A stretch of DNA of 64,000 bases. It comes from a virus. Positions 20,935 to 53,351 of the stretch are shown in pieces. Position 1 is the first letter of the stretch. Every line of letters begins with the position of its first letter. The stretch covers positions 1 to 64,000 of IMG/VR virus record IMGVR_UViG_3300031857_013780; one strand, written 5' to 3'. The translations under genes and the position numbers were made by a program. The notes below the pieces were generated by a model that searched no databases, had not been told where the DNA came from, and was given only the letters and a program-made list of their open reading frames with translations.

Positions 20935-21888
20935 CTAATCATATTTAGTTTTAGTTCCTCCTTTAGTTAAATATAAATTAACTGGACTTTTTTCATATTC
21001 TTTTTTCAAAAATTCAGAAGATGCTTGAATATTTCTTGGATCATCATCTGAAAAACCAATTGAAACGTTTCTAGAAACAAACTCTTCTATGTCTTGTGTT
21101 GGTTCGTTCATATTAACATCATTTTTAAATTTTGGAGAAATGTCTTCTAATTTTTTATTTGGGTTTTTATTTAAAATGTCTTGTACCAAATCTCTTGCTT
21201 GTTGTTTACAATAAATTATAAATTTTTGAAGTGCTTTATTTTTTTCTTCTTCAGGTGATGCTGCGCTGCCGGCACCAAAAGAAACTGGATGAAATTTACA
21301 CATATCTAAGTAATCCATAATAAGTTCTTTATCATCATACTTTAAGTCTCTTACAGTTTCGAACATTCCTTGAGTTTGTAACCCCCTATATTTTTTTAGG
21401 TTCTCCACTAAAACTTTAGAATTTATACCCAAATGATTTGATATAATATAATTTAAAACCGCCTCTTTTAATGTTTCAGGATTATGTCCTCTTGCTGTTA
21501 TAATTGCAAAAATTGACCCCCCATTAATACATTCCACAAAGTCATTCCATGATGGTCCTGGACTTGCAATCATCGAGTCGATTATAAATCTTTTATCCCC
21601 TTCTGTTCTAAAATTTCTAAAGGGATTATTTGCATAACCAACAACAGTAGTTCCTTTATAATTAAAAGGTTCAACACCTATTTGGTGTCTGTGTTCAGCA
21701 AAATCTTCGGTTGACAGTCCAATCTCATCCTCATTTTCTGTTAAAACAATAATTTTAGTTGGCATAAATGCAATATTATCATCCCAATCAAACGCATAAT
21801 AATTTAAATCTGGTCTCCCTTCTTCAGTAATACCTTCATTTAATCTTCGTTTATTAATCTCTCTATATATGTGTTTTCTAATATTCAT
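20935..21888 (-). CDS. HAD-like hydrolase with capsid-targeting-like N-terminus
   Basis: A 317-residue protein with haloacid dehalogenase motifs: YYAFDWDDNIAF (D34, D36, D37) for the nucleophile loop, AIITARGHN near residue 133 for motif II, and IGFSDDDPRNI near 279 for the metal-binding acidic loop. It should be a phosphatase or phosphohydrolase; the substrate is unknown. Before the domain is a basic helix MNIRKHIYREINKRRLNE followed by G19. L16-N-E18 fits the cleavage site of T4-type prohead proteases, so the enzyme may be packaged in the capsid. Its start shares one base with the stop of the preceding 45-aa gene, which has a similar N-terminus. An insert at about 195-250 is not typical of minimal HAD proteins. 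Confidence 0.65.
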   Translation of the reverse strand: MNIRKHIYREINKRRLNEGITEEGRPDLNYYAFDWDDNIAFMPTKIIVLTENEDEIGLSTEDFAEHRHQIGVEPFNYKGTTVVGYANNPFRNFRTEGDKRFIIDSMIASPGPSWNDFVECINGGSIFAIITARGHNPETLKEAVLNYIISNHLGINSKVLVENLKKYRGLQTQGMFETVRDLKYDDKELIMDYLDMCKFHPVSFGAGSAASPEEEKNKALQKFIIYCKQQARDLVQDILNKNPNKKLEDISPKFKNDVNMNEPTQDIEEFVSRNVSIGFSDDDPRNIQASSEFLKKEYEKSPVNLYLTKGGTKTKYD

Positions 21889-22088: not shown

Positions 22089-25000
22089 TTATACGTCATC
22101 GAACGATGCTCCTGTTGGTGTGATAACAAACTCTATGTCTATGTATTCTAACGCTCTTGTTGGTTTCAAGAAGATTTTACCCGTTAAAGTATTTGAATCC
22201 AAATCTTCAGGAGTATTAGAAACAGTAACTCTAAAGTCAATTAAACCTCTATCTCTTCTGATTGAATCCAAGATTGGGTTAACCGCATCTAAGAAATCTT
22301 GTCTCACTTTGTCGTCATTTTGTTCAAATAACAATCTAACCGCAACCGCTGAAATTAACTTTCTTGCTTGTAGTAACAATCTTCTAACGTTAATTCTATC
22401 TAAAGCGGATTCTCTAATTTGTAAAGTTTTATTACCCCAAATAACCGTACCAACATCAGAGAAAGTAGCTATTGGATTAATTCTTCCTTTATATAGTGTA
22501 TCTCTATCTTCTTGAGTTAGTTTCTTTCTTGCTTTAATAGAGTTAACCAAACCTCTTGTGTAACCAGCCGATGCGAACCAAGGGAATGCAATATTATCGG
22601 TTAATGCTAAGTTTTTAGTTACCTCACCTGTTGGTGGAAGATAAATTTGAGTATTATTTACAGAATCTCTTGTCAAAATCCACGGATAGTAAGTTGCTGT
22701 GTAATTTGAATCAATTCCTGTATTCTCTAAATTATCTACCACTTCTTGTGGATAAATTAATCCTTCCGTTAAGTCACTGTATGAAGGTAAGAAAAGATTA
22801 AAGTCAGGTGTTGTACAAATGTAAATTGAGTCAGCCCTATCAGTTTCAACAACATCTATAGCGTTTTCAACAAGATTTGAATTATTAACATAATCAATTC
22901 CTGGTGTAACAAAAACGTTAATGTTAGTTGCTTCAGGATTTGCAAATGATGTTTGACCCCATAGATATGCATAATAGTCAGTATTTGCCCACACTTCTTG
23001 GTTAGGTCCTGTAATTTGTTTAAATGCCCCCCATCCTGTTGCTGTTGGGTATGTGGCAGACGCCGCAGCACCTTTTTTATAACCTGATTGACCTAATTGG
23101 AATCTATCGGTATTGGTTCTACTTTCTCTGTATATATCCCAACCATCAAAACCGCCAGCGGCTAATAATGTAAATTTACGAGTATTTAATCTAAAATATG
23201 CATTATCTGAATCCGTAGGTTCAGAGTTGAAAGAAGAAACCCCAACCTCAAAAGCCGAAGTATTAGCAGACATAAGTACATCAAACATAGTAACTATAGT
23301 TGCTCCACTATCCATGTGGAAACCTTTTGTCTTGTAACCCCATTCTGATCCTGTAGTATCTACCGCAATATTTGAAGGTAATTGTTTTCCTTTATAATTA
23401 AAGAAGTCATAATCTATTCCTGTAATATTAGATATACCTAAATAAGCCCTTCTTGGATTTTCTCCATTTGAGATTACTGGATTATCTCCGCCCGCTGATG
23501 AACCAAATGGTGGGTTATATATTACTTCACCAGGTGTTAAGTATTTAGTTTTATAAATAACAAAAGGAGGGGTTGCAGTTTGGTATTGTCTAGAAATATA
23601 ACCCTCAAATCCACAAGGTAATGCATCGGTTGGGTACTCTTCACTTAACTCAACCATTATGTATTTAGAATTTAGTTGGTATTCTCCATTTGCGGTACCA
23701 ACTTTGTTTGCCACAAAATTATTAAGATTAGGATCCATTGAACAATTTGTGAAACTTTCAATTACTCTAACGTTTTGATCATTATCATAAAAGTCTCTTA
23801 CAAAAATATCAAACGTTCCATTATTAAATGAAATATTCCCAATAGAAATCTTAACAAGTCTGTTAGAGGCATCTCCATCTGAAATAAGTTTGAATTTAAA
23901 TAATTTATAAACTTTGTTACCTCTTAATTCAGAAACAACAAATGGAGTTTCAGGTGTTTGGTATTGTTCTAAATAAAAACCTAAAGTGTCGTTATCTCCA
24001 CTTCTTGCATCATCAATAGCGATAAAGTCACAATACAAACCTCTAACTTTACCGGCCCTATAACCTGATGTTAATAGACTACTGTAAGATTCCTCAACAA
24101 ATAAAGGAACCTCATTTCTATCTTTAGCAAAATTAGACCTACCAAATATTTTAGAAATATATCTACTATCTGTTGAAAGGAGTGAAGTTTCAAAACTAAA
24201 AGTGTCACTATCTTTTGTAATACCTGAAATAACAAATGTACCGTATGGGTCTTTAGTAATTCCTGAATAATTTCCTGAACATACCATAATTGCGTCACTT
24301 GTACCACTAACTTCATAAACAGGACCATCATCTGTTGAATATGTTGATATACCTCTTGATCTTAAAGTTGCAACTACTAAATCGTCATAATCAGAATATG
24401 GTGTACCTGAATAGAATGTTGCATATAATTTACAAGTACCTGTAAATTGTGAGGTAGTTGCGCCTGTGCCAATAGCATCAAGAGCAGCACCAAAACCAAA
24501 ACCATAATAACTTCCAACACTATTAGTTTTAGTATAATCAAATAATGAGTAATACCAAGGGTCGTTAACGTCCGAACTTAAATCTGCATTTGCTAAAATT
24601 ACATTATCAACACCAAAAGTTTCAGTTGTTGCAGAAACAGGAACTCCAAATAATGTAGTACCGGTTACTTGGTTAAACGTTCCTCCACTTACTGTTCCCC
24701 AAAATACTGCGTTACCTACTGTTGCTCCACTACCACCACTTGCAAAATTATTAATTTTATTTGATAAGAAATTTATAAAATCTTGATTTAATGATGAAGT
24801 ACCTCCATTAAATGTTGTATAGTTGTTATAAAATATTGATGATAACAATGATGACGGGTTAGTTACTGTAACATTTGCACTTGAACCTGTTGTACCTGTG
24901 AAAGTTAATGTGTATGATGTGCTAACACCTGTTGCCGCTATTGTTGATGTATCGGGGTTTCCTATCGTTGTAATAGACCAAGATGGTCCCGCATCATAAC

Positions 25001-25301
25001 CCGATAAACCAAGAACTCTTGTTACAAAAAGTTGGTTAGATTGTTGCAAATAAGATTTTGCAATATAAGATGTTTCATATTTAGGAATTTGAGTATTAAC
25101 AAATTTTTCAGGGCTTGTGCCACCGAAATAAACTTGATACTCGTCAAAACTTGTAATGAAGATTGGTTCAAATGCCGGACCTTGTAGTGTTTCACCTACA
25201 ATACCTAATGTTGTTACACCGACACTTTGAGCCACAAAAGTTAAATCTCTTTCTGATGTATAAACACCTGGAGATACAAATACTTTGTTAGTTGAAGCCA
25301 T
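22089..25301 (-). CDS. Tail sheath protein (T4 gp18-like)
   Basis: A 1070-residue contractile sheath subunit. The start NKVFVSPGVYTSERDLTF and the segment GVTTLGIVGETLQGPAFEP, followed by FDEYQVYFGG, are classic for sheath proteins. The C-terminal domain shows NIAFPWFASAGYTRGLV, VIWGNKTLQ, and the NVRRLLLQARK helix with VRLLFEQNDDKVRQDFLD, ending in the strand that hooks to neighbouring subunits. T4 gp18 is 659 aa. The extra 400 residues lie in the middle (about 140-560), rich in Ser, Thr, Gly and Tyr, and probably form surface domains on the tail. A TATTTATA box 32 nt upstream and a hairpin downstream suggest a monocistronic transcript. Confidence 0.92.
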   Translation of the reverse strand: MASTNKVFVSPGVYTSERDLTFVAQSVGVTTLGIVGETLQGPAFEPIFITSFDEYQVYFGGTSPEKFVNTQIPKYETSYIAKSYLQQSNQLFVTRVLGLSGYDAGPSWSITTIGNPDTSTIAATGVSTSYTLTFTGTTGSSANVTVTNPSSLLSSIFYNNYTTFNGGTSSLNQDFINFLSNKINNFASGGSGATVGNAVFWGTVSGGTFNQVTGTTLFGVPVSATTETFGVDNVILANADLSSDVNDPWYYSLFDYTKTNSVGSYYGFGFGAALDAIGTGATTSQFTGTCKLYATFYSGTPYSDYDDLVVATLRSRGISTYSTDDGPVYEVSGTSDAIMVCSGNYSGITKDPYGTFVISGITKDSDTFSFETSLLSTDSRYISKIFGRSNFAKDRNEVPLFVEESYSSLLTSGYRAGKVRGLYCDFIAIDDARSGDNDTLGFYLEQYQTPETPFVVSELRGNKVYKLFKFKLISDGDASNRLVKISIGNISFNNGTFDIFVRDFYDNDQNVRVIESFTNCSMDPNLNNFVANKVGTANGEYQLNSKYIMVELSEEYPTDALPCGFEGYISRQYQTATPPFVIYKTKYLTPGEVIYNPPFGSSAGGDNPVISNGENPRRAYLGISNITGIDYDFFNYKGKQLPSNIAVDTTGSEWGYKTKGFHMDSGATIVTMFDVLMSANTSAFEVGVSSFNSEPTDSDNAYFRLNTRKFTLLAAGGFDGWDIYRESRTNTDRFQLGQSGYKKGAAASATYPTATGWGAFKQITGPNQEVWANTDYYAYLWGQTSFANPEATNINVFVTPGIDYVNNSNLVENAIDVVETDRADSIYICTTPDFNLFLPSYSDLTEGLIYPQEVVDNLENTGIDSNYTATYYPWILTRDSVNNTQIYLPPTGEVTKNLALTDNIAFPWFASAGYTRGLVNSIKARKKLTQEDRDTLYKGRINPIATFSDVGTVIWGNKTLQIRESALDRINVRRLLLQARKLISAVAVRLLFEQNDDKVRQDFLDAVNPILDSIRRDRGLIDFRVTVSNTPEDLDSNTLTGKIFLKPTRALEYIDIEFVITPTGASFDDV

Positions 25302-27387: not shown

Positions 27388-27392
27388 ATATA

Positions 27393-29156
27393 ATGGAAGA
27401 ATTAATTTCAAAAACACCTGAAACAAGGGCCCTTCAAATGTTAGATGATTATGTTGGGTCAAATAACTATATCTTGTCATTAAAAAACAAAAAACAAAAT
27501 AGTAAGTCTTTTACCCCCACAAGATCTCAAGCGGAATACATAATTAACTTTCACGGACGAACACCAAAGGTGGCAAAAAAATGGGTCAAGTTAGATTCGT
27601 ATTTTGGAAAAAAAATGATGGAAGATAAGATGTACACTAAAGAACCAACGGAAATATATGTTGAAAAACTTTTGGTGGAGAAGGATAAGTCATACCATAT
27701 ATGGGGTAAAATATTTAGTGGTGAGACCATACATGATTTTTGGATTCCAAAAACTGCACTTATTAAAGATAATGAGGTAAAGAATGTTGTTATTGAATAT
27801 TCAAAATATGACCACAGGGCTCCGATGGATCACCAAAAAGAGGCGATTGAAAAACTTGTTAGAAACAAAAAGTTTATTTTGGCCGATGACATGGGTCTTG
27901 GTAAAACAACCTCAACAATTATTTCGGCACTTGAAACGGGTGCAAAAAAAATATTAATTGTGTGTCCCGCATCTTTAAAAATTAATTGGCAACGCGAAAT
28001 TGAAAATTATTCAGATAGAACTGTTTATATTGCGGAAGGCAAAAAGTTTTCAACTGAATCTGATTTTGTTATAATTAACTACGACATATTAAAAAACTTT
28101 CACGACCCAAAAAAGAAAGACGACTCCATAATTTTAAATTCTAATTTTGATTTAGTTATCATGGATGAGGCACATATGATTTCAAATCCACAAGCACAAA
28201 GAACAAAAATAGTTAACGATTTATGTGATAAAGTTGAAAGGGTTTGGTTATTAACAGGAACCCCAATGACCTCAAGACCAATGAACTACTACAATCTTTT
28301 AAGTTTAGTTGAAAGTCCTGTTGCCGCAAATTGGATGGCTTACGCAAAAAGATACTGTAATGGATTTCAATTTAGTGTTGGTAAAAGAAAGGTATGGAAC
28401 GTTACGGGAGCATCAAACTTAGATGAGTTAAGAGAAAGGACACAAAGCCATATTTTAAGAAGATTAAAAGAAGATGTTTTAGATTTACCAGATAAAATTA
28501 TTACTCCTGTTTATTTAAGGTTAAAATCAAAAGACTATGAAGAATTAATGGGTGAATACTTTAATTGGTATGACAACAACTCAGAAGAGTCTTCATCTTT
28601 AACCATTCAGTTTGGTAAATTAATGAAAGTTAGAAAAGTGATTGCTGAAGAAAAAATTAAAAATACAATTGAATTGGCTGAAAATATTATTGATCAAGGA
28701 AAAAAAGTAATCATATTTACAAACTTTACGGATACGTTACGAACCATTTATGAACATTTTGGAAAACAGGCAGTTTATTTAGACGGGTCTTGTTCAAAAC
28801 CACATCGTCAAAAAGCGGTGGATGATTTTCAAGAAAACGACAAAATAAAAGTTTTTGTTGGTAATTTAAAGGCCGCTGGTGTTGGTATTACTTTAACATC
28901 TGCAGAAGCCGTAATCATGAATGATTTATCTTTTGTCCCCGCAGAACACGCACAAGCAGAAGATAGATCACACAGAATAGGTCAAAAAAACTCAACATCG
29001 GTTTATTATCCATTATTTGAAAACACAATAGAAGGGGTGATTTATGATATTTTAAATAGAAAGAAAAAAATCATATCAACAGTCATGGGTGATGATATTA
29101 TGGAAGATGCATCGACAATTGAAGAAATGTTAAATTTAATTTCTCATAAGAGGTGA
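27393..29156 (+). CDS. SNF2-family helicase (SMARCAL1/UvsW-like role)
   Basis: A 587-residue superfamily 2 ATPase of the SNF2 type. Motifs: MDHQKEAI (Q-like) at 145-152, Walker A DDMGLGKT at 165-172, LIVCPASLKINWQREI near 188-203, the DEAH box at 258-261, LLTGTPM at 286-292, a long helicase-C domain with GKKVIIFTNFTDTL, and QAEDRSHRIGQ near residue 522-531. SNF2 proteins translocate on DNA. Phage versions are thought to remodel forks or recombination intermediates, as UvsW does in T4. An N-terminal region of 140 residues precedes the core. The start is at 27393: the open frame extends 57 codons upstream but through the divergent promoter and the oppositely oriented gene. Confidence 0.85.
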   Translation: MEELISKTPETRALQMLDDYVGSNNYILSLKNKKQNSKSFTPTRSQAEYIINFHGRTPKVAKKWVKLDSYFGKKMMEDKMYTKEPTEIYVEKLLVEKDKSYHIWGKIFSGETIHDFWIPKTALIKDNEVKNVVIEYSKYDHRAPMDHQKEAIEKLVRNKKFILADDMGLGKTTSTIISALETGAKKILIVCPASLKINWQREIENYSDRTVYIAEGKKFSTESDFVIINYDILKNFHDPKKKDDSIILNSNFDLVIMDEAHMISNPQAQRTKIVNDLCDKVERVWLLTGTPMTSRPMNYYNLLSLVESPVAANWMAYAKRYCNGFQFSVGKRKVWNVTGASNLDELRERTQSHILRRLKEDVLDLPDKIITPVYLRLKSKDYEELMGEYFNWYDNNSEESSSLTIQFGKLMKVRKVIAEEKIKNTIELAENIIDQGKKVIIFTNFTDTLRTIYEHFGKQAVYLDGSCSKPHRQKAVDDFQENDKIKVFVGNLKAAGVGITLTSAEAVIMNDLSFVPAEHAQAEDRSHRIGQKNSTSVYYPLFENTIEGVIYDILNRKKKIISTVMGDDIMEDASTIEEMLNLISHKR

Positions 29157-29164
29157 TATTTATT
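29157..29164 (+). promoter_or_regulatory. TATTTATA-type element (TATTTATT) before superoxide dismutase
   Basis: TATTTATT begins at the base after the helicase stop and lies 3 nt before the ATG at 29168. It could give the dismutase gene its own late transcript. Confidence 0.35.
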
Positions 29165-29167: not shown

Positions 29168-29884
29168 ATGATATTTAGAAAGTTAAATGAAAAAATAAAT
29201 TTAATAGAAAATAAGTTAGGGGTAAAATCACTAATAAACGAATCTTTAATTAATGAAATTAAAAAAATTTCAATAGAAAAATTACCTTATCAGTTTGACG
29301 ATTTAGAAGACTTCATAGATGGTGAGACAATGAAAACACACTACACAAAACACTACAAGGCGTACGTTGAAAAGTTGAATAAAGAATTAGAAAAAATAAA
29401 AGGTAAAGATTTAGATTTAGAAGAAATTGTTTCGAGTATTTCCAAATTCAATACAAAGGTAAGAAACAATGGTGGTGGTGCGTTTAATCACGCATTATTT
29501 TGGAAAATGTTATCACCTAAAAAAACTAAGTTAGAAAATCCTTTATTATATAAGTTAGAGTCCACATTTGGGTCATTTGAAAAATTTAAAGAAAAGTTTG
29601 AAGAAGAAGCGAAATCCAGATTTGGATCAGGTTGGGTATGGTTAGTACTAACAAAAACAAATAGATTAAAAATTGTCACAACACCAAATCAAGATAATCC
29701 ACTAATGATGACAGGAAAAAATAAGTCATATCCATTGTTAGGTTTAGACTTATGGGAACACGCATATTATTTAAAATATAAAAACGAAAGAGACCGTTAT
29801 ATTCATAATTTTTGGAAAGTAGTGAATTGGGATTTTGTTACTGATTTATACACAACTCAATTAGAAAGAAATAAAGCAGAATAA
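29168..29884 (+). CDS. Fe/Mn-family superoxide dismutase, manganese type, with capsid-targeting-like extension
   Basis: A 238-residue protein whose residues 39-238 are a full Fe/Mn superoxide dismutase, converting superoxide to oxygen and peroxide. Metal ligands are present: H58 in MKTHYTKHYKAYV, the histidine of FNHALFW, and the Asp and His of GLDLWEHAYY. H62 and Y66 match the conserved active-site pair. GGGAFNH and PNQD place the second-shell glutamine where manganese enzymes have it. Residues 1-38 are extra: a basic helix ending SLINE/SLINE, two possible (I/L)-x-E prohead-protease sites (E25, E30). This suggests packaging in the capsid. A GTG codon five codons upstream lies inside the helicase stop region; I prefer the ATG. 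Confidence 0.85.
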   Translation: MIFRKLNEKINLIENKLGVKSLINESLINEIKKISIEKLPYQFDDLEDFIDGETMKTHYTKHYKAYVEKLNKELEKIKGKDLDLEEIVSSISKFNTKVRNNGGGAFNHALFWKMLSPKKTKLENPLLYKLESTFGSFEKFKEKFEEEAKSRFGSGWVWLVLTKTNRLKIVTTPNQDNPLMMTGKNKSYPLLGLDLWEHAYYLKYKNERDRYIHNFWKVVNWDFVTDLYTTQLERNKAE

Positions 29885-29911: not shown

Positions 29912-31030
29912 ATGTCAACATCAATTATTTCAGAACCGCATAGAAGTAAACTTTATAAAAGAATTAGAAATCTTTTAGGTGCACCTTTAAGAGGTGTTGA
30001 GTTAGAAGATGAAATGATGGACTCTCTTTTAGAGTTATCCATTCAAGATTATTCTCAACACGTTAATGATTGGTTAATTGAGACCCAATGGTCGGCATTG
30101 TACGGGTTAAACCTTGATGAACAATCTTTAACTAAAGCATTTACAACTAGAAGTTTAGATTGGGAAACACAATACACTTACGCATACTCAAAAATTGTTG
30201 GTTTACAGGCTGGGGGTGATTACGTACTTCAAAAAGATTATATAGACTTAGTTCCGCATCAACAAATTTATGAGATACCGGCAGGTAGAGAGGTTAATGA
30301 ATTACTTTGGTTTGCTCGTTCTGAATTGGACGCAGCATATTTTGATCCATTTATGGGTGGATTCGGTGGATTCGGCGGTATTGGTTTAGGTGGTGGTGCT
30401 GGATTTTCTCAGATGGGTACAACAGGAAACTATTTTATAACCCCAGCATTTGATATTCTTTTGAGAATGGCGGACATACAATTAAAAAGAAGAATTATTA
30501 CAGGTGATTTAACTTATAGAATAACCGCGTTACCCGAAGGAAAAAAGGCAATACATTTATATAATGTTCCTGGTGGTAAATTTGATTTTGGTAATATGAG
30601 AAGAAACGATTATAGAGTTTGGTATTGGTATTATGATACATTTGATAGGGACGATTGTTTGGCAAAAAATCCTGATGTGGTTAGATTACCTTCCGATATA
30701 CCTATAGATGAAACAAGGTGGGACGAATTAAATTCTCCTGCACAAACATGGGTAAGAAGATGGTTTACAGCATATTGTAAAGAAACACTTGCAAGAGTAA
30801 GAGGTAAGTTTAGTGGAAATTTAAAAACACCTGATAGTGAATTAACTCTTGAATATACAACGTTACAATCAGAAGCCAAAGATGAAAAATCAATTCTTTG
30901 GGAAGAACTCAAAACAAGACTTGAAAGGTTAAGACCTGAAAAACAATGGGAAATAAAGGGTGCTATGGCTGAAAATATGAATAAGGCTCTAAAATATAGA
31001 CCATTTAATTACCCAATAAACGTAATTTAA
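29912..31030 (+). CDS. Neck protein (T4 gp13-like)
   Basis: A 372-residue virion protein, longer than T4 gp13 (309 aa). The N-terminus SEPHRSKLYKRIRNLLGAP with ELEDEMMDSLLELSIQDYSQ is a helical bundle typical of neck and connector proteins. A Gly/Phe-rich loop (FMGGFGGFGGIGLGGGAG, about 147-164) follows, then YRVWYWYYDTF and a helical C-terminal half (WVRRWFTAYCKETLARVRGK). It should sit between portal and tail and close the filled head. It starts 14 nt after a TATTTATA box and leads a two-gene unit that ends tail-to-tail with DNA polymerase. Assignment to gp13 is by architecture and location, not by alignment. Confidence 0.65.
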   Translation: MSTSIISEPHRSKLYKRIRNLLGAPLRGVELEDEMMDSLLELSIQDYSQHVNDWLIETQWSALYGLNLDEQSLTKAFTTRSLDWETQYTYAYSKIVGLQAGGDYVLQKDYIDLVPHQQIYEIPAGREVNELLWFARSELDAAYFDPFMGGFGGFGGIGLGGGAGFSQMGTTGNYFITPAFDILLRMADIQLKRRIITGDLTYRITALPEGKKAIHLYNVPGGKFDFGNMRRNDYRVWYWYYDTFDRDDCLAKNPDVVRLPSDIPIDETRWDELNSPAQTWVRRWFTAYCKETLARVRGKFSGNLKTPDSELTLEYTTLQSEAKDEKSILWEELKTRLERLRPEKQWEIKGAMAENMNKALKYRPFNYPINVI

Positions 31031-39639: not shown

Positions 39640-39933
39640 ATGGCAGTACAAAGTGATAAAATTGATCTTTCACAACCCGAAAATGAAATGTCAAGAATAG
39701 CGGAAGAACAAAGAAAAAGACTATTCCCAAGAAATGATTTTAAACCAACCGATCAATATTCGGCAGTACATCCTGACGCAATTGCTGATGGTGACGTAAA
39801 TGGTAAAGGTACGGGAGGTGATTTAGATATTTATAACCAAAGGGCCGGATCAAGTGTAGATAGGGCTGAAAGAATTGATGATATAAAAATAAACAAATTT
39901 TCACCTAACAACCCATATTATCAAGTTAGATGA
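39640..39933 (+). CDS. Small acidic/polar late protein
   Basis: A 97-residue polar protein with few hydrophobic residues: MAVQSDKIDLSQPENEMSRI, then RLFPRNDFKPTDQY, a Gly/Asp-rich stretch with DGDVNGKGTGGDLDIYNQ, and the end KINKFSPNNPYYQVR. It looks extended or disordered and probably wraps a partner, as small phage linker or assembly proteins do. It starts one base after the previous stop and overlaps the following gene by four bases (ATGA). Function not recognised. Confidence 0.5.
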   Translation: MAVQSDKIDLSQPENEMSRIAEEQRKRLFPRNDFKPTDQYSAVHPDAIADGDVNGKGTGGDLDIYNQRAGSSVDRAERIDDIKINKFSPNNPYYQVR

Positions 39934-40331
39934 AACTAATTAAAACTTTAAAACACGTCATCAACGAAGCGGCATCAATAGACGATGTTAGAAATTCCAT
40001 ACGCAATAAAAAAGTCATGATTATATATTATGATGGTGAAGACAATGGTGGTAAAGGGTATCGAACAATAGAACCGGTATGTTTAGGTGTAAGTAAAAGG
40101 GGTAATTTTGTTTTAAGAGCGTGGGAAGTTGAGGGTTCTTCTTGGAGTGCACAAAATGAAGGTAACATTTTACCCGGATGGAGACTTTTTAGATTAGATA
40201 AAATCTTTACATATAGACCAACTATGGATAATTTTTATACTATGAGACCTAAGTATAACCCTAATGGTGATAAAAGTATGGAAAGGGTCTTTATAAACGC
40301 AAAATTCGACAATGAAGAAAATATAACTTAA
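39930..40331 (+). CDS. WYL-like domain protein with capsid-targeting-like N-terminus
   Basis: A 133-residue protein. It starts MKLIKTLKHVINE then AASIDD, a 13-residue basic helix ending in I11-N-E13, closely resembling the T4 internal-protein targeting peptide. The rest is a small beta domain: RNKKVMIIYYDGEDNGGKGY, TIEPVCLGVSKRGNFVLRAW, then PGWRLFRLDKI and a final RVFINAKFDN. The order I-x-Y-Y ... R-x-[IV]-x-P-x-x-[LC] ... L-x-A-[WY] ... R-x-[FY]-[RK]-x-D-[KR] is that of WYL-type SH3-like ligand or nucleic-acid-binding domains. A packaged DNA-binding or host-modulating factor is plausible. It overlaps the previous gene by four bases (ATGA). Confidence 0.55.
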   Translation: MKLIKTLKHVINEAASIDDVRNSIRNKKVMIIYYDGEDNGGKGYRTIEPVCLGVSKRGNFVLRAWEVEGSSWSAQNEGNILPGWRLFRLDKIFTYRPTMDNFYTMRPKYNPNGDKSMERVFINAKFDNEENIT

Positions 40332-41032: not shown

Positions 41033-42244
41033 ATGAGTAAAATTAAAGTATTAGTACTTCCTTCAGACCGTACCGGCGTTGGAAAATTTCGTTCTGTGGA
41101 CCCTCACGTAATGTTACAAAATAATCACGGAGACGATTTTCACGTAGATATAGACTACGACCCAAAAATAAACGATATAAATTATTGGAGACAATACGAT
41201 ATTGTCCATTTTCATAGAAGCATTGGTCAGAACTATGATGCGGCCCCTTCAATAATTCAAAACCTTAATAATTTAGGAATCGTAACTATTATGGATTTAG
41301 ATGATTATTGGTTACCAACAAAAGAACATCCGGTACATCAATTAGTTGTTCAAAACAAATTACATGAAAAAATAATGGCAAATTTAAAAGTTTCTAAATA
41401 TGTAACAACAACCACAAATATTTTTGCTAATGAAATTTCAAAACTTAATAAAAATGTTTTTGTTTTACCAAACGCAATAAACCCTAACGAACCTCAGTTT
41501 CAATCAGAAACATTACAATCAGAAAAGTTAAGGTTTGGTTGGTTAGGTGGGTCTTCACATTTACATGATCTTAAATTATTAGATGGGACAATAAATAAAT
41601 TAAAACCATTAAAAGATAAATTTAGTATGTATCTTTGTGGTTTTGATACCAGAGGAAGTGTTACAGAAATTAATAAACAAACGGGAGAACAAAAACAAAG
41701 ACCTATTAGACCTGAAGAAACTGTTTGGGCAAGATATGAAGAAATTTTTACAGATAACTACAGAATGGTAGATCCCGAACATAAAGATTTTTTAATGAAA
41801 TTTAAAGAAGAAGAATTTGTTTCAAACGAACTACCTTTTTATAATAGAATATGGACAAAACCTGTAACCACTTATGCGTCTAATTACAGATGGTTTGACG
41901 TTTCACTTGCACCAATTAAAAATCATATATTCAATAGAGTTAAATCACAATTAAAAGTCATTGAAGCGGGGTTCTATAAGAAAGCGATTATTGCATCAAA
42001 TGTTGGTCCGTACACAATTGACTTGAAACATTCATTACAAAATGGTAACTTTGTTGATGGAAACGCACTTTTAGTCGATGAAGTGAGAAATGGTGATTGG
42101 TCTAAATATATGAAAAAATTAATTGATAACCCTAATTGGGCTTATGATTTAGGTCAAAGATTATATGAAACAGTTAAAGACACATATGACTTAAATAAGG
42201 TAACAAAAGATAGAGCGGAATTATATAAAACATTAGTAAAATGA
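41033..42244 (+). CDS. GT-B glycosyltransferase (family 4-like)
   Basis: A 403-residue glycosyltransferase and first gene of the glycan island. Features of the GT-B fold: an N-terminal half with YDIVHFHRSIG and IVTIMDLDDYW (about 94-104), a linker with VFVLPNAINP, the second Rossmann domain opening with LRFGWLGGSSHLHDL (about 163-177), and a late KVIEAGFYKKAIIASNVG that holds the E-x-x-x-x-x-x-I-x-S/T sugar-nucleotide site. It would transfer a sugar from a nucleotide donor to a growing glycan or protein. It overlaps the next gene by four bases (ATGA). The acceptor and donor cannot be told from sequence. Confidence 0.8.
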   Translation: MSKIKVLVLPSDRTGVGKFRSVDPHVMLQNNHGDDFHVDIDYDPKINDINYWRQYDIVHFHRSIGQNYDAAPSIIQNLNNLGIVTIMDLDDYWLPTKEHPVHQLVVQNKLHEKIMANLKVSKYVTTTTNIFANEISKLNKNVFVLPNAINPNEPQFQSETLQSEKLRFGWLGGSSHLHDLKLLDGTINKLKPLKDKFSMYLCGFDTRGSVTEINKQTGEQKQRPIRPEETVWARYEEIFTDNYRMVDPEHKDFLMKFKEEEFVSNELPFYNRIWTKPVTTYASNYRWFDVSLAPIKNHIFNRVKSQLKVIEAGFYKKAIIASNVGPYTIDLKHSLQNGNFVDGNALLVDEVRNGDWSKYMKKLIDNPNWAYDLGQRLYETVKDTYDLNKVTKDRAELYKTLVK

Positions 42245-42969
42245 TAAACATACCCATTACAAAAATATTATTCTTGGATATTGAAACTGTCGGTATCTGT
42301 AAAGATTGGTCGACATGTCAAGAAACTAACCCAAAGGTTGCTGAACAATTTGTTAAATACTTTGATTGGTTTTTGAAAAGGTTTCCTGAAGATAATTACG
42401 AAACTGATGGTCTTGAAGAAGAACTACAAAAGATGAACGATGTTTATTCTAAACGTTCGGCACTTGTTCCTGAGTTCGCAAAAATTGTTTGTGTATCAAT
42501 GGCCTTTGTGATGGAAAATGGTGAAATTAAAAAACAAACATTTTCAGGTGATGACGAAAAAGAGTTATTATTACAAGTAAGAAACCTTCTTGACAGATGT
42601 CAAAAGTTAGATTTTTATCTTTGTGGTCATAACTTAAAGAATTTTGACATTCCTATGATGGCAAAAAGGATGATTATTAATGGTATAATGCCATCAAAAT
42701 TATTACCTTCATACGATACAAAGCCCTGGGAAGTTAAAGCAATTGACACAAAAGAAATTTGGCAATACGGAGCATACTCATCAATTGGTTCTTTAGATTT
42801 AGTATGTGCAACATTAGACATACCAACACCAAAAGATGGTGAAGTGAATGGGGGTATGGTACACGAAGCATATTGGCAACACAACAGATTACAAGAAATT
42901 GCAGAATATTGTGAAAAAGATGTTAATGTATTAATAAATTTTATAAAAAAATTAAAAGAATTAAAATGA
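42241..42969 (+). CDS. DnaQ-like 3'-5' exonuclease
   Basis: A 242-residue stand-alone exonuclease of the DEDD superfamily. Exo I is ILFLDIETVG (D13, E15), Exo II GHNLKNFDIPMMAKR (about 129-143), and Exo III YCEKDV near 222 with the catalytic tyrosine-aspartate pair. Conserved SSIGSLDLVCATLDI and HEAYW segments match a group of exonucleases related to the proofreading domain of PolB. It could trim 3' ends in recombination or degrade host DNA. It sits inside the glycosyltransferase chain, with four-base overlaps on both sides, so it is made with those enzymes rather than with the polymerase. Confidence 0.8.
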   Translation: MINIPITKILFLDIETVGICKDWSTCQETNPKVAEQFVKYFDWFLKRFPEDNYETDGLEEELQKMNDVYSKRSALVPEFAKIVCVSMAFVMENGEIKKQTFSGDDEKELLLQVRNLLDRCQKLDFYLCGHNLKNFDIPMMAKRMIINGIMPSKLLPSYDTKPWEVKAIDTKEIWQYGAYSSIGSLDLVCATLDIPTPKDGEVNGGMVHEAYWQHNRLQEIAEYCEKDVNVLINFIKKLKELK

Positions 42970-43547
42970 GTGAAGAAAGTATAGAATCGAAATTAAAACA
43001 ATTAGAAAAATTAAATTTAGATATTACAGAAAATAGCGGATTTGATGAATTTTTAAATTCAATTGATGTTGACATGATTAATCAATTTTTTGAAGACTCA
43101 ATGGTTTCAAAATTAGAATTAAAATATAAAAATGAGTCAGAAAATGAAGAACCTGAATATGCATACGAATCTGATTCTGGTTTTGATTTAAGGTCGAGTG
43201 AAGAAATATGGGTACAGGCAAATAATAGAGCACTTATACCGACAGGATTAAGATTTGACATACCTGATGGTCACGAGATCCAAGTTAGAAGTAAAAGTGG
43301 TTTAGCCCTTAATCAAGGTCTTATGGTTTTAAATTCTCCAGGTACTGTAGATAGTGGTTATCAAGGTGAAGTAAAAGTCATTATATTTAATACGACCAAT
43401 GAAAGAATTAAAATAGAAAAAGGTCAAAAAATCGCACAAGCAGTTCTTTGTCCTGTTGTAAATGGAAAGTGGGTAAATTTAGTTAAAGTAGAAGAGATTG
43501 GTGAAAAGGATAGAAACGATAAAGGATTTGGTAGTACAGGTCTATGA
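42966..43547 (+). CDS. dut: dUTPase with N-terminal extension
   Basis: A 193-residue trimeric-type dUTP diphosphatase, which removes dUTP and supplies dUMP. All five motifs are present: SDSGFDLRS (69-77), RSKSGLALN (108-116), GTVDSGYQGEVKVIIFN (126-142), GQKIAQAVLCP (153-163) and the C-terminal P-loop-like RNDKGFGSTG (183-192). About 65 residues precede the core; they are acidic and helical (SIESKLKQLEKLNLDI) and are not part of the standard enzyme of about 150 aa. Four-base overlaps on both sides tie it to the exonuclease and a glycosyltransferase. Confidence 0.92.
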   Translation: MSEESIESKLKQLEKLNLDITENSGFDEFLNSIDVDMINQFFEDSMVSKLELKYKNESENEEPEYAYESDSGFDLRSSEEIWVQANNRALIPTGLRFDIPDGHEIQVRSKSGLALNQGLMVLNSPGTVDSGYQGEVKVIIFNTTNERIKIEKGQKIAQAVLCPVVNGKWVNLVKVEEIGEKDRNDKGFGSTGL

Positions 43548-45007
43548 TAACAATAGGATTTTCAACAAGACAAGATAATCAAAAATATATTGATTATTTA
43601 ATTAAAACTTCAGGATTTAAAAATGTTGAGGTCATACAAAAAATAAATAACGGATCTAAATCACTTTCTCAAGTTTATAATGAAATTTTAAATGAATCTA
43701 AAAATGATATAGTGGTGTTTTGTCACGATGATTTGGAATTCGACACAAAAGATTGGGGAAAAAGAGTTATTAAACATTTTGAAAAGAGTGATTTTGGAAT
43801 ACTTGGTGTTGCAGGCACCACTGAAATACCTAAAAGCGGTATGTGGTGGGAAGACAAAAGAAAAATGATTGGTATTGTCAATCACAAACACGAAGGCAAA
43901 AAATGGGAGTCAAAGTATTCAAAAAGTTGGGGAGACGAAATAAATGAATGTTGTTTTGTAGATGGTTTATTTATTGCGGTAAACAAAAAAAGATTAAAAG
44001 AAACCTTTGACGAATCGGTTAAAGGATTTCATTTTTATGACGTTTATTTTTCAGTTAAAAACTTTTTACAGAATGTAAAGGTTGGTGTGGTATATAACAT
44101 AAGAATTACACATCTTTCAATTGGTCAAACAAACGAAAGTTGGGAAAATAACAGAAAAGTTTTTGAAGAAGAGTATAAAGAAAGTTTACCTATAAAATCC
44201 AATTTGAATTTAAATTATGTGATTAAAGATTTTAAATTTTTAAAAAAATATAATTTAAAAATAGTGTTATCTTGTGGAGAAGATATTGAATTTGTAAAAA
44301 GGACTATTGAAAAAATTTATTCTTTTAATTTACCAAACTTTGACATTAATTTAATTTCAAATGAAAACAATCAAGATGAAATAAAAAAATTAGAATCAGA
44401 TAAAATAAAAGTTTATGATGGTGTTTTTGATGAGCAATCAAAAAATCTATCAATTTTGAAATGGGAAGATGGTTTTATTGATGAAAGTTACGATCTAATT
44501 TTTTTTATTGATAAAAATGTTGAGATATTAAATAATATTTTTTCTTCAATATGTGAATTATACCATAAAGAAAAACATACGTTTGGTTGTGCTTTTACTA
44601 CATCTATGAATAGTGACTATAGTGTATTCAGTAATAAATTTAATTTGTTTATGAATCAAAATAATCAGGTTAATATGTCAATAGAAGGTAATGGTTCGTT
44701 TTATAATGTAATGAACGGATATCGAGAAAACAAATTAGGTAATTTATCTGACGTTTTTGTTACAACTTATCAAAATTTAATTAACAATGATTGGTTTGAT
44801 ATACAATATGATACCAATATTTGTTATAATGATTTTACAATAAAATGTACAAGTAAAAATCAAAAATGTTTTTGTGATGGTAATTCACTAACAACACAAA
44901 CCTCTTTTAATAATAATGAAGTTTTTGGTCAAGATATTAATAAATTTTTACAAAAAATTATGTCAGACCAAAAAACACAAAGTTTAATAATGGCAGTTAA
45001 TGGTTAA
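43544..45007 (+). CDS. Two-domain GT-A glycosyltransferase
   Basis: A 487-residue protein. The first 215 residues match the GT-A type with ITIGFSTRQDN, KSLSQVYNEIL and the metal-site region VVFCHDDLEF (about 57-66), then VAGTTEIPKSGMWW and ECCFVDGLFIAVNKKRL. These are hallmarks of the phage or Gtr-like family 2 group. The second half (about 230-480), with LKIVLSCGEDIEFVKRTI and YDLIFFIDKNVEIL, looks like a second GT-A-like domain whose D-x-D is changed to D-K-N, perhaps inactive or acceptor-binding. It overlaps genes on both sides. Confidence 0.7.
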   Translation: MITIGFSTRQDNQKYIDYLIKTSGFKNVEVIQKINNGSKSLSQVYNEILNESKNDIVVFCHDDLEFDTKDWGKRVIKHFEKSDFGILGVAGTTEIPKSGMWWEDKRKMIGIVNHKHEGKKWESKYSKSWGDEINECCFVDGLFIAVNKKRLKETFDESVKGFHFYDVYFSVKNFLQNVKVGVVYNIRITHLSIGQTNESWENNRKVFEEEYKESLPIKSNLNLNYVIKDFKFLKKYNLKIVLSCGEDIEFVKRTIEKIYSFNLPNFDINLISNENNQDEIKKLESDKIKVYDGVFDEQSKNLSILKWEDGFIDESYDLIFFIDKNVEILNNIFSSICELYHKEKHTFGCAFTTSMNSDYSVFSNKFNLFMNQNNQVNMSIEGNGSFYNVMNGYRENKLGNLSDVFVTTYQNLINNDWFDIQYDTNICYNDFTIKCTSKNQKCFCDGNSLTTQTSFNNNEVFGQDINKFLQKIMSDQKTQSLIMAVNG

Positions 45008-45785
45008 AATAGTTTCAGGTTATTCAGATAAAGGAGGATCTACAACCGCGTTTATAAATCTTACTAATTTTTTAAATGAAAACGGTATTGATTGTACTTT
45101 TTATGGCCCACACGAATGGCATTTAAATAAATGTAAATCGGATAAAATTGATAATGTTGTTTATGGAGAAAATGATGTTGTTATTTTTCATTTTTTAGAT
45201 TTAAAAGAAAGACCTAATATAAAAAAATCAATACTTTCATGTCACGAAAAATGGTGGTTTCCTGTAGGAAAAATAAAACAGTACTGGGATACTGTAGTTT
45301 TTTTACATGACCAACATAGAAATTATCATGGAGATTATCATGGTAAGTTTGTAATAATACCAAATATAAAAGAAAATCTTAAATCTTTAGATAAAACTAA
45401 TTTGTCAAAAGTTGCTGGTATTATTGGTACAATTGAAGATAGAAAACAAACGCACGTTTCAATACAAAGAGCATTAAAAGATAAATGTGAAAAAATTTAT
45501 TTGTTTGGTCATGTAGGTGATCAAAATTATTATAACAATTATGTTAAACCACTTTTAATACCTAATAGGGTAATAGAATATGGACACACAACAAATAAAC
45601 AAGAAATGTACGACATTGTTGGTCGGGTTTATCATTCATCTAAAGGTGAGGTTGCTTGTTTAGTAAAAGACGAGTGTTATTTAACAAATACTGATTTTTT
45701 TGGTAATGAAGAAACGGAAAATGAAGTTTCAAAATTAACAAATGAAGAAATATTAAAGTTATGGAAAAATTTATTTGAAGTATGA
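45000..45785 (+). CDS. Putative GT-B-like glycosyltransferase
   Basis: A 261-residue protein starting MVKIVSGYSDKGGSTTAF, a glycine-rich loop near the N-terminus as in GT-B enzymes that bind acceptors, followed by LTNFLNENGIDCTFYGP. The second half has GIIGTIEDRKQTHVSI (about 140-155) and KIYLFGHVGDQNYYNNYV, which match the start of a donor-binding domain, but the final E-x-x-A loop of family 4 is not clear. It is shorter than most GT-B proteins. It overlaps the previous gene by 8 bases and the next by 4. Probably a glycosyltransferase or a related sugar-binding protein. Confidence 0.55.
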   Translation: MVKIVSGYSDKGGSTTAFINLTNFLNENGIDCTFYGPHEWHLNKCKSDKIDNVVYGENDVVIFHFLDLKERPNIKKSILSCHEKWWFPVGKIKQYWDTVVFLHDQHRNYHGDYHGKFVIIPNIKENLKSLDKTNLSKVAGIIGTIEDRKQTHVSIQRALKDKCEKIYLFGHVGDQNYYNNYVKPLLIPNRVIEYGHTTNKQEMYDIVGRVYHSSKGEVACLVKDECYLTNTDFFGNEETENEVSKLTNEEILKLWKNLFEV

Positions 45786-46504
45786 AAATACACGCACATA
45801 TATTAGCATGGAATGAAGAAAAGATTTTACCTTTCACATTAGACTATTATAGTAATATATGTGAAAAAATTTTTATATACGACAATATGTCCACAGACTC
45901 ATCCGATGAAATTTATAAAAGATACTCTAAGGTTGAGGTAATAAAATGGGATAGCGGAGAAAGGTTCAATGATCACTCACATATAGAAATAAAAAACAAT
46001 TATTATAAAAAATATAGTAGGGACAACAATGTTGACTGGGTTATTGTTTGTGATTGTGATGAATTTTTATATCATGAAAATTTAATCGATTTATTAACTG
46101 AATATAAAAATACTGGAGTAACAATACCGTTAGTATGTGGACATGACATGGTAAGTGAAAACTTTCCAACTTATGACGGACAATTACTTACAGACAAAGT
46201 TAAAATAGGGTCAGAAAGATATGAACCTATGTGTAAAAAAATAATTTTTGACCCAAAAATAGATGTTCAATATGGGTTTGGTGCGCACAATATAATGTCA
46301 AATAATTCAGTGTTTTCAAAAAAAGAAGAATTAAAACTTTTACATTATAAATTTTTAAGTAAAGATTACGTAAAAGAACTATACATAAAAAGAGCTAAAA
46401 GGTTATCAGATTTTAATTTAAAAAATGGATTTGGTCGACATTATTTTAATTTACCATTTAAATATATGGACGAAATGTTAAAATCAAATAAACGAGTAAT
46501 ATGA
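45782..46504 (+). CDS. GT-A glycosyltransferase (family 2_4-like)
   Basis: A 240-residue enzyme with AWNEEKILPF (9-18), FIYDNMSTDSSDE (31-43) and the catalytic D-x-D region VIVCDCDEFLYH near 88-99. A Cys/His/Tyr-rich middle and a final LKLLHYKFLSKDYV segment are typical of short glycosyltransferases of the DUF-like 2_4 group, which often start from an N-E-x-x-x-L-P-x-x-L motif and act on protein- or lipid-linked glycans. Four-base overlaps on both sides. Donor sugar unknown. Confidence 0.75.
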   Translation: MKIHAHILAWNEEKILPFTLDYYSNICEKIFIYDNMSTDSSDEIYKRYSKVEVIKWDSGERFNDHSHIEIKNNYYKKYSRDNNVDWVIVCDCDEFLYHENLIDLLTEYKNTGVTIPLVCGHDMVSENFPTYDGQLLTDKVKIGSERYEPMCKKIIFDPKIDVQYGFGAHNIMSNNSVFSKKEELKLLHYKFLSKDYVKELYIKRAKRLSDFNLKNGFGRHYFNLPFKYMDEMLKSNKRVI

Positions 46505-47325
46505 AAAAAATTTTAATATCCGATTTTACAATAAATGAGGTTCCTCACGGAGGTTCGGAATGGGTCAATCAAGTTTTAATTGAAAATTTTAATTTAGAAT
46601 TTGAATATTCTAATAAAGTAACTAATTTAGATAAAAATAATTTTTACATCATATCAAACATTTCTTTAATGAATACAAATTTAGTTAGGGAAATACCTAA
46701 CTTAAATTACATAATAATAGAAAATGATTACAAAATTTGTCCGTCAAGACATCCTTGGAGGTATCCTGATAACATAATACCTCAACATGACAGAATAAAC
46801 TATGACCTTTATAAAAACGCAAAAGCAGTTTTTGTTCAAACAACCGATCATTTGAATGTTTATTTAAAAAATGATGTTGAAGCAAATTTTATTAATTTAG
46901 AATCTTCTATTTGGTCAGACGATGATTTAAATTTATTGTCCGATTTATTAGAAAAAAATCAAAATAAAAATGGCAAATATGGTGTATATTATACATCTAA
47001 TTGGATAAAAAACACTCAGGGTAATTTAAAGTATTGTAATGAAAATAAATTACAATTTAGTATAATTAAAGAAACAAAAGTAAGAACTGAATTTTTAGAT
47101 AACTTGGCCAAATGTGAAGGTTTAGTTTTTTATCCATTAGCAAGAGAAACTTTTTGTAGGTTAGTTGTTGAGGCTAAATGTTTAGGTTTAAATGTAATAA
47201 CTTCTAAAAATTATGGGGCGTCTTTAGAACCTTGGTTTGATGAATTATCAGGATTAGAACTGATAGGATTTTTAAAAGAAAAAACAAACGAAAATATAAA
47301 TAAAATAAAAGAATATATTTTATGA
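46501..47325 (+). CDS. GT-B-like glycosyltransferase
   Basis: A 274-residue protein. The N-terminus KKILISDFTINEVPHGGSEW has the glycine loop (HGGSE) of family 4 enzymes. Residues about 95-120 contain YDLYKNAKAVFVQTTDHLN, a typical acceptor-side segment. The C-terminal half has LAKCEGLVFYPLARETFCRL with VVEAKCLGLNVITSKNYGA, matching the donor-binding E-x-x-x-x-G-x-x-V-I/V-[AT]-x-x-x-G. It probably adds one sugar in the island's glycan. Four-base overlaps join it to both neighbours. Confidence 0.75.
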   Translation: MKKILISDFTINEVPHGGSEWVNQVLIENFNLEFEYSNKVTNLDKNNFYIISNISLMNTNLVREIPNLNYIIIENDYKICPSRHPWRYPDNIIPQHDRINYDLYKNAKAVFVQTTDHLNVYLKNDVEANFINLESSIWSDDDLNLLSDLLEKNQNKNGKYGVYYTSNWIKNTQGNLKYCNENKLQFSIIKETKVRTEFLDNLAKCEGLVFYPLARETFCRLVVEAKCLGLNVITSKNYGASLEPWFDELSGLELIGFLKEKTNENINKIKEYIL

Positions 47326-48386
47326 AAACCATAATTACCGTTACAGGTATAAGACCAGATTTTATAAGAATGTCTGAAATATTTAAAAAATTAGATGAAA
47401 ATTTTAATCATATTCTCATACACACAGGTCAACATTTCGATAAGTTACTATCTGACGTATTTTTTGAAGAATTAGAAATTAGAGAGCCGGATTATAATCT
47501 TAATATTGGTGGTAAAGATAAGGAACATTTTCACCAAACCGGAGAATTGTCAACTAAATTAATTGAAACAATAAGAAAAGAAAAATTAAATCCAGATATA
47601 ATACTTTTTTTAGGTGACTCTAATTCGGTTTGTTCTGCAATGTCTTTAAAAAAAGAAGGTTATAAAATTGGACACATTGAGGCGGGTATGAGATCATATG
47701 ACAAGAGAATGCTAGAAGAAATAAATAGAATTGTTTGTGATCATTGTAGTGATTATCTTTTTGTTTATCATGAAAATTACAAACAAAAAGCATTAAAAGA
47801 AAATATTAATAATGATTCCGTATTTGTAGTTGGAAATACCATAGTTGAGGTTGTTAAAAAACACAGACCTAAAGAAAATAAAAAAAATAATAAGATAATA
47901 CTAGACATACACAGACCAGAAAATTTTAAACATAAAAATAGATTGGAGAATATTATTAAATATGCCAACTACTCGTCTAAAGAATACGATATTCCGGTTT
48001 TTATGTTAGGCTTCAAACGCACATTAGAATTTATTGAAAAATATGAAATAAATTTGGGAAATATAAAAGTAATAGATCTTTTACCGTTTAAAAAATATAT
48101 AAGTGAAGTTTATCACTCAAGATTTATAATTTCAGATTCTGGAACCGCACAAGAAGAACCGGCGTTATTAGATACTCCGGTAATTGTCCCAAGAGATTTT
48201 ACCGAAAGACCCGAGTCAATGGATAATAATTGTTCTTTTATGCTTGATGTTAATACTGAGTATAACTATAATTGGTCATCTTCTTTTGCTTGGTTACTAC
48301 TTAACTCAAATAACAGAAGAATTGAATGGTTAGGTGACGGTACAACATCCGAACAAGTAATAAAAATATTAAAAGATAACTTATGA
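47322..48386 (+). CDS. wecB: UDP-N-acetylglucosamine 2-epimerase
   Basis: A 354-residue enzyme interconverting UDP-GlcNAc and UDP-ManNAc. Family signatures: TVTGIRPDFIRMSEIFKKL (7-25), LIHTGQHFD (32-40), ILFLGDSNSVCSAMSLKK (about 91-108), GHIEAGMRS (117-125) followed by EEINR, then ILDIHRPENF and, near the end, ISDSGTAQEEPALLDTPV. These cover both Rossmann domains and the active-site Asp, Glu and His residues. Length fits bacterial WecB/MnaA (about 375 aa). It would feed ManNAc-type donors to neighbouring transferases. Four-base overlaps on both sides. Confidence 0.88.
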   Translation: MKTIITVTGIRPDFIRMSEIFKKLDENFNHILIHTGQHFDKLLSDVFFEELEIREPDYNLNIGGKDKEHFHQTGELSTKLIETIRKEKLNPDIILFLGDSNSVCSAMSLKKEGYKIGHIEAGMRSYDKRMLEEINRIVCDHCSDYLFVYHENYKQKALKENINNDSVFVVGNTIVEVVKKHRPKENKKNNKIILDIHRPENFKHKNRLENIIKYANYSSKEYDIPVFMLGFKRTLEFIEKYEINLGNIKVIDLLPFKKYISEVYHSRFIISDSGTAQEEPALLDTPVIVPRDFTERPESMDNNCSFMLDVNTEYNYNWSSSFAWLLLNSNNRRIEWLGDGTTSEQVIKILKDNL

Positions 48387-49968: not shown

Positions 49969-49975
49969 ATTTTTA

Positions 49976-50704: not shown

Positions 50705-50720
50705 ATTAAAAGTCTAGTGT

Positions 50721-51570: not shown

Positions 51571-51572
51571 TT

Positions 51573-52172: not shown

Positions 52173-52179
52173 AAAAATT

Positions 52180-52356
52180 ATGTATGAATTGTGGCAAACT
52201 GTAGATGATTTTAACGTAACGTATCCTTTTTTTTTATTAGATAAAGGTGACTTTGATGAAATATATATTAAGTTTAAAAAAAATAAAAACACTGTAATAA
52301 CCGACAAAAAAGGAAAAATAATCAAATCACATATTGAAATTAAAAGTAATGAGTAA
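52180..52356 (+). CDS. Small 58-aa protein, coupled to gmd
   Basis: A 58-residue protein, MYELWQTVDDFNVTYPFFLL then DKGDFDEIYIKFKKNKN and a lysine-rich end. The gene starts 7 bases after the aminotransferase stop, and its last 8 bases overlap the start of the dehydratase gene (ATGAGTAA). The overlap, uninterrupted frame and codon use like its neighbours support that it is expressed. It is mainly beta in prediction with an acidic front and basic back. No function recognised. Confidence 0.5.
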   Translation: MYELWQTVDDFNVTYPFFLLDKGDFDEIYIKFKKNKNTVITDKKGKIIKSHIEIKSNE

Positions 52357-53332: not shown

Positions 53333-53351
53333 ATAATAAATTCAAATAAAA

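Follow-up and report, generated by a model that had tools for sequence, protein, structure and literature searches.

A superoxide dismutase with a candidate prohead-protease leader in a T4-like phage, and its possible place among internal head proteins

The prohead protease of phage T4 acts at (I/L)xE sites, and several groups of proteins processed in a comparable manner are known. The T4 internal proteins are described as core proteins that are trimmed by gp21, and one of them, IPI, as injected (PMC3012670, PMC9958956, PMC7411985). The capsid protein gp23 is reported to lose a 65-residue propeptide in maturation (PMC9958956), and cleavage after glutamate is described for prohead proteases more generally (PMC5694885, PMC9958956). 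The ejection proteins of the giant phages SPN3US and phiKZ are likewise described as having long propeptides with several sites at which the protease cuts after Glu, although their motif is A-x-E or S-x-E, their cargo is different, and, as far as that account goes, the propeptides are removed rather than serving as separators of enzyme domains (PMC5694885).

Superoxide dismutases (SODs) are also encoded by viruses, and that of the chlorovirus PBCV-1, A245R, is described as packaged in the virion; the lower superoxide in infected cells is ascribed to this packaged Cu/Zn-SOD (PMC7019647). PBCV-1 is, however, a virus of eukaryotic algae, its enzyme is of the Cu/Zn type, and the available part of that account makes no mention of a prohead-protease leader (PMC7019647). 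Pseudomonas phage Callisto and its relatives (the PA5oct group) encode a protein of the Fe/Mn-SOD superfamily that is 26.6% identical to the enzyme considered here, but the Callisto protein, at 182 aa, is too short for such a leader and is encoded among chaperone and Clp genes, and the phage is classed in the Arenbergviridae. The Cu/Zn-SOD fold is unrelated to that of Fe/Mn-SOD. The earlier note on this DNA knew of no description of a virion-packaged Fe/Mn-SOD in a tailed phage, and none is found among the matches listed in the open-licence PMC literature.

The gene in question lies in a window of 64,000 nucleotides (the whole stretch of DNA that was analysed), taken from a virus record of 72,389 bases. 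The T4-like genes of this record encode a tail sheath, a tail tube, a T4-type baseplate protein, a UvsX-like recombinase and a family B DNA polymerase, and by these genes the virus, known here from sequence alone, is a T4-like phage. As in T4 IPI, IPII, IPIII and Alt, a short N-terminal propeptide that would end in hydrophobic-x-Glu precedes a compact soluble protein, and, as in T4, a gp21-type protease and a gp23-type capsid protein are encoded in the group to which the phage belongs. Unlike the T4 internal proteins, the cargo is a complete antioxidant enzyme, the leader comprises 30 residues rather than about 10-20, the candidate cut site is followed by I or M, and many of the relatives are multi-site polyproteins. 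The reading that best accounts for the comparative evidence, to which a probability of roughly 0.7 may be given, is that the SOD precursor is packaged in the T4-like head, cut after E30 and probably delivered into the cell. The features on which the discussion draws are as follows.

20935..21888, - strand: gene for a 317-aa protein with a leader ending KRRLNEG, a possible packaged protein (a relative in G012 keeps TNLNEG)
27390..29156, + strand: SNF2-type helicase gene upstream of SOD (PF00176, phrog_62; it precedes SOD in 157/157 viral loci)
29150..29157, + strand: Shine-Dalgarno-like GAGGTGAT, which shares bases with the helicase stop codon (read directly)
29168..29257, + strand: predicted SOD leader (propeptide), residues 1-30 (from translation, the [IL]xE at its end in viral loci, and an AlphaFold2 helix followed by disorder)
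29231..29242, + strand: first LINE, residues 22-25, a non-conserved site of a possible additional cut after E25 (E in 19/61)
29246..29257, + strand: second LINE, residues 27-30, predicted prohead-protease site with a cut after E30 ([IL]-x-E-[IM]-K in 116/116)
29258..29881, + strand: predicted mature Fe/Mn superoxide dismutase, residues 31-238 (PF00081 and PF02777, PDB matches, invariant active-site residues)
29912..31030, + strand: head-tail adaptor-like gene downstream of SOD (phrog_211, head-tail adaptor Ad2, E 5.7e-10)
39930..40331, + strand: gene for a 133-aa protein with leader MKLIKTLKHVINEAAS, a possible second packaged protein (INEAAS as in the capsid-protein site)

Translation of the window gives a SOD ORF of 238 residues at 29168-29884 (+). 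It matches both Pfam domains of the family far above their curated cut-offs, namely Sod_Fe_N (PF00081) over residues 36-116 (6.3e-24, 84.7 bits against 27) and Sod_Fe_C (PF02777) over residues 125-225 (2.1e-40, 137.3 bits against 20.9). A PDB sequence search places the protein nearest to Mn or Mn/Fe SODs of bacteria (5n56, with E 3.4e-59 over SOD residues 36-229), and the AlphaFold2 model, a monomer based on a 61-sequence alignment with a mean pLDDT of 84.4, matched the Mn-SOD 5a9g (Foldseek E 4.6e-19). When the window's protein was aligned with 60 relatives, H58, H62, Y66, H108, W158, Q175, D194, W196, E197, H198 and Y201 were invariant (61/61). By comparison with the E. coli SOD, we take H58, H108, D194 and H198 to be the metal ligands and Y66, Q175, E197 and W158 to form the second shell, and Q175, the Gln after PN, presumably occupies the Mn-type position. 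The domain matches and invariant residues thus bear out the earlier note, which had described a complete Fe/Mn-SOD that retains all its active-site residues and places its glutamine as Mn enzymes do, and the structure prediction that it had proposed as a check agrees. The NCBIfam Mn-SOD equivalog model gives 199.6 bits, under its cut-off of 363. The enzyme is best regarded as an active-looking SOD, probably of the Mn or cambialistic type.

In the window, if ordinary start codons are used, the leader must be translated, because the ATG at 29168 is the sole ATG, GTG or TTG between codon 1 and the SOD core. GAGGTGAT ends 10 bases upstream of this ATG, and a GTG is located five codons upstream of it. 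A leaderless internal start was considered for the window and rejected, codon 31 being ATT and no ATG, GTG or TTG following codon 1 before the core. In another clade residue 31 is Met, and there an internal start may be compatible with the sequence taken by itself.

The pentapeptide SLINE occurs twice in the leader, at residues 21-25 and 26-30, and the earlier note had read both copies as sites resembling those of the T4 prohead protease. The second copy stands and the first does not. Viral relatives were collected as 157 loci from two scans (the best 80 of each), comprising 116 distinct sequences. Relative to LPY, Glu is found at -9, Ile or Leu at -11, Met or Ile at -8 and Lys at -7 in all 157 loci and in 116/116 distinct sequences, which, being related, are not 116 independent events, so that kinship inflates the counts. 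Leader columns -24 to -13 relative to LPY are freely variable across the same 116 sequences. In the alignment of 61, E30 and K32 are as invariant as the metal ligands (61/61), and the first SLINE was ruled out as a conserved site by the presence of E25 in 19 of the 61. The control set consisted of 61 bacterial SODs, of which 54 could be anchored and were of sufficient length. An [IL]xE at the place of E30 is found in one of these 54, as against 157/157 viral loci; Glu by itself occupies that place in 6/54, and 7/54 have an [IL]xE at some point in the stretch between 16 and 4 residues ahead of the core. The survey of homologous phages for the same leader, suggested at the outset, showed a leader-end [IL]xE at each of the 157 viral loci collected.

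The model places a helix at leader residues 2-17, and residues 24-31 have a pLDDT below 50. An invariant E30 inside a stretch predicted to be disordered is what would be expected of a short linear motif or processing site. Nonsynonymous codon differences number 5/30 in the leader against 8/208 in the remainder of SOD when compared with L002, and 9/30 against 22/208 when compared with L003. The leader appears in both comparisons to diverge faster than the enzyme, as expected of a propeptide. Additional [IL]xE motifs occur in 96/103 leaders, where shuffling gives a mean of 71 and a maximum of 84; this excess is modest, and I, L and E are frequent in leaders generally.

The site at E30 can also be compared with the head genes of the group, which were searched for in 33 records (32 from relatives and the window's own). 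The gp23-type capsid protein (PF07068) was found in 14/33 (8/15 and 6/18) and the gp21-type S77 prohead protease (PF03420) in 12/33 (7/15 and 5/18). All 12 protease-bearing records also contain the capsid family, and in the two exceptions, G006 and G030, the capsid gene is located at the record end. Neither family was matched in the 72 kb record to which the window belongs, in G015, whose SOD is identical to that of the window, or in the two large records G001 (214 kb) and G026 (224 kb), and these records may be fragments. In 13/13 capsid proteins read (the partial one of G030 was left out), the sequence LINE/A, with the slash marking the cut, aligns with FLTE65/A of T4 gp23. Because of this alignment, the SOD leader of the window ends in the same tetrapeptide as the homologous capsid maturation site of its relatives, and the likeness to T4 prohead-protease cleavage points on which the earlier note relied is thereby strengthened. 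The S77 proteases have an [ILV][IL]xE near their own start in 11/11 read, a partial twelfth having been left out. LINE occurs 24 times in the 337,987 ORF residues of eight records. Seven of these occurrences are the capsid-protein site and one is the SOD leader of G014, and three are located in the window's record, two of them in the SOD leader. The residues after the cut differ, however, with I or M followed by K in the SOD leader, A in the capsid protein and mostly S or G in the linkers described below.

Around SOD, the recurring gene order is sheath, two unnamed genes, helicase, SOD, head-tail adaptor-like gene, small gene and DNA polymerase. The adaptor-like gene has no Pfam match, and its phrog_211 match is partial, covering residues 275-338 only. 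It is found 3' of SOD in 146/157 loci, and the remaining 11 stop within 842 bases of SOD; the loci were picked for the presence of SOD, so these counts apply to SOD carriers. A late-promoter signal was also considered and dropped, TATAAATA occurring 15 times where 16.3 are expected. The capsid-protein matches listed (8 of 2493 phage records) include Microcystis phage Mel-JY01 and Flavobacterium phage immuto, both at 40-41%; the 28 phage records with a SOD match contain neither of the two.

Other parts of the record have features of their own. The tail sheath gene at 22089-25301 (-) encodes 1070 residues, with a good sheath-family match only in the C-terminal part, about 780-1067. From 41033 to 57906 (+) extends a long run of glycosyltransferase-, sugar-nucleotide- and methyltransferase-like genes, judged from translations only, which is apparently a surface-glycan cassette. 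In L082, positions 5684-7675 and 7887-8387 (record positions 69684-72387) encode a signal-peptide-like protein that contains CUB and GEVED domains and, at the record end, a subtilase fragment, which are unexpected in a phage.

The relatives add an aspect that goes beyond the earlier note. Judged from their ORFs, SOD is there one module of a variable polyprotein. A domain of ~125 residues with an HExxH motif is present N-terminal of SOD in 58/157 loci. It has invariant H78, E79, H82 and E102 in 26 sequences and no Pfam family over cut-off, and is called zincin-like here by its motif alone. At the other end, the ORF extends at least 60 residues past SOD in 73/157 loci. Sorting by text pattern, in which loci cut by a contig end were scored as being without the missing part, divides the 157 into SOD alone (34), zincin-SOD (50), SOD-N1 (59), zincin-SOD-N2 (7) and others (7). 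The N1 domain, absent from the SOD of the window, has no Pfam match over cut-off, but E150, D184, Q197 and K199 are invariant in 31/31. Its model (pLDDT 88.7) is nearest to the homing endonuclease I-Ssp6803I (2ost, E 9.5e-4) and to Holliday-junction resolvases, with low TM-scores, and it is probably a PD-(D/E)xK nuclease. Profile searches of Pfam, PHROGs and PDB gave nothing convincing for the zincin-like and C-terminal domains; phrog_5018, of unknown function, matches L266 at 6.8e-5.

The linkers between SOD and these C-terminal domains contain an [IL]xE in 47/47 distinct cases and two or more in 37/47. Shuffled linkers have two in a mean of 4.5 and a maximum of 12 of 47, and same-length random windows inside the C-terminal domains in at most 4/47. 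With the wider pattern [ILVM]xE, two are present in all 47 linkers, and the next residue is mostly S (48) or G (19), with M and I found twice each. The differing C-terminal partners N1, N2, L080 and L247, which look unrelated to one another, are joined to SOD through the same kind of linker, and a remnant KLNES is present at the SOD C-terminus in L011, L042 and L070. A rapidly built tree, in which several branches are long, separates the viral SODs from 38 bacterial SODs with an SH-aLRT of 80. It implies 12 changes in the zincin state, and strong branches force no fewer than 6 of them. In L042 and L079, a short N-terminal piece of the zincin start remains, fused to the leader helix, which reads as a zincin domain that has been deleted with the helix and site retained. 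Zincin domains are SOD-fused in 79/80, the remaining one being cut by a contig end, and N1 domains in 80/80; each figure refers to the best 80 ranked by likeness to SOD-fused queries, the two sets overlap the earlier SOD loci, and distant free-standing relatives may escape such a ranking. Separately, the SOD encoded at 2953-3678 of L175, a contig of a Fluviicola MAG, starts with MNLKIVDILREGLKD, which resembles the phage leader, and its long branch in the tree is the one nearest the viral SODs; the contig is possibly phage or misbinned.

It may be that the enzyme is not packaged at all. As a cytoplasmic auxiliary SOD, it would be made and would work in the infected cell, and the leader would be an oligomerisation or partner-binding helix that is never cut. 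One study indeed counts a viral Fe/Mn-SOD among auxiliary metabolic genes, with a possible buffering effect on the host (PMC12542629), the SOD of Callisto is leaderless and encoded in a non-head region, and a helix is predicted at leader residues 2-17. However, the most conserved leader feature is the [IL]xE in the disordered part and not the helix, the same motif recurs at the C-terminal linkers and at the capsid-protein maturation site, and the gene adjoins the head-tail adaptor-like gene, so that this explanation seems unlikely, at perhaps one chance in a handful. Less probable still is a packaged but uncut internal or neck-associated structural protein, in which the SOD fold would be a dimer-forming carrier for zincin and nuclease modules. 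The constancy of SOD while its partners vary (with 79/80 zincin and 80/80 nuclease domains SOD-fused in the best 80 of each, ranked with SOD-fused queries) and the gene order beside the head-tail adaptor-like gene would suit such a carrier, but its linkers would hardly be so dense in (I/L)xE sites. The catalytic residues checked are also kept in 61/61, and SOD activity must for that reason matter; this reading is accordingly improbable. Finally, E30-(I/M)-K could be part of the SOD N-terminus itself, serving the fold or a dimer or tetramer contact and resembling a protease site by chance, as its position just nine residues before the core and the conservation running on into the core might suggest, but bacterial SODs have E there in only 6/54 and [IL]xE in 1/54, the stretch is predicted to be disordered (in a monomer model, with which an oligomer contact is still compatible), and the C-terminal linker sites would be left unexplained, which makes this the least likely of the three, if only slightly.

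Packaging, cleavage, ejection and purpose are what we infer from the computed enzyme family, leader site, capsid-site match, protease of the relatives and domain swapping. Residues 1-30 would be a capsid-targeting propeptide, in which the helix at 2-17 docks on the prohead core and is followed by a flexible tail. At head maturation, the gp21-type S77 protease would cut after E30 to give a mature SOD of I31-E238, the leader peptide would exit, and the mature SOD would remain with the DNA. In relatives, the protease would part the zincin-like, SOD and nuclease-like or other domains at the (I/L)xE sites, and, because the domains are separated by such sites, one precursor would bring several separate proteins into the head. 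It may be, more speculatively, that the inter-domain cuts hold the nuclease silent until the head matures. Like the T4 internal proteins, SOD would most likely enter the cell with the DNA and could clear superoxide at the start of infection; removal of superoxide at entry is the best guess as to the benefit, and an alternative would be that the packaged genome is shielded from oxidants.

Several points count against packaging, among them the I/M-K after the cut, which is unlike the A of the capsid protein, a SOD leader that is unlike other leaders by eye, and the window's record, which is without a capsid or protease match. No report of virion proteomics for this group was found among the matches listed in the open-licence PMC literature. 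The comparative evidence is strong, and the packaging idea may be considered partly supported by it. It is directly testable, since the exact new N-terminus is named. Pending proof of packaging, SOD would best be classed with the T4-type internal head proteins, with a known enzyme as its cargo and an unusual polyprotein in relatives.

The broader proposal is a SOD-centred head-cargo polyprotein in a large T4-like group, with one targeting signal, split by the protease into several enzymes that are ejected with the genome, and with flanking modules that were repeatedly swapped or lost while SOD stayed constant. The odds of this fuller picture appear about even. No report of a prohead-protease cargo polyprotein is found among the matches listed in the open-licence PMC literature, and, if true, this would to our knowledge be the first case of a SOD shown to travel in the particle of a tailed phage, as well as the first cargo polyprotein of several enzymes to be cut by a prohead protease. 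A phage SOD would otherwise be read as a metabolic gene working in the infected cell. If it rides in the head, superoxide control would belong to the earliest infection or to virion survival, in a widespread phage group; the two scans found at least 589 and at least 599 viral stretches encoding SOD relatives. A rule might also be suggested by which (I/L)xE-linked domains in phages with a gp21-type protease flag packaged proteins from sequence.

Leaders of a comparable kind are found on other proteins. In addition to the 133-aa and 317-aa proteins of the window (VINEAAS and RLNEG), two genes of the same virus, at L082 4054-4515 (+) and 4512-5222 (-), encode short leaders ending VLKEEE and IIKEADSS, and all four may be regarded as further packaging candidates. 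In G012 (L102-L116, 291,867 bases), and also in L117 (G002) and L141 (G005), recurrent N-terminal leaders occur on differing proteins. By regular expression, an LTESDL-type (MKKVIRLTESDLxRIVRRVINE) is present on 8/347 and an ITESQ-type (MKIIITESQYKxLFE) on 11/347 ORFs of G012. The SOD leader resembles neither type by eye. Both types end in hydrophobic-x-E, and taken together they have the appearance of an extensive set of capsid-targeting leaders.
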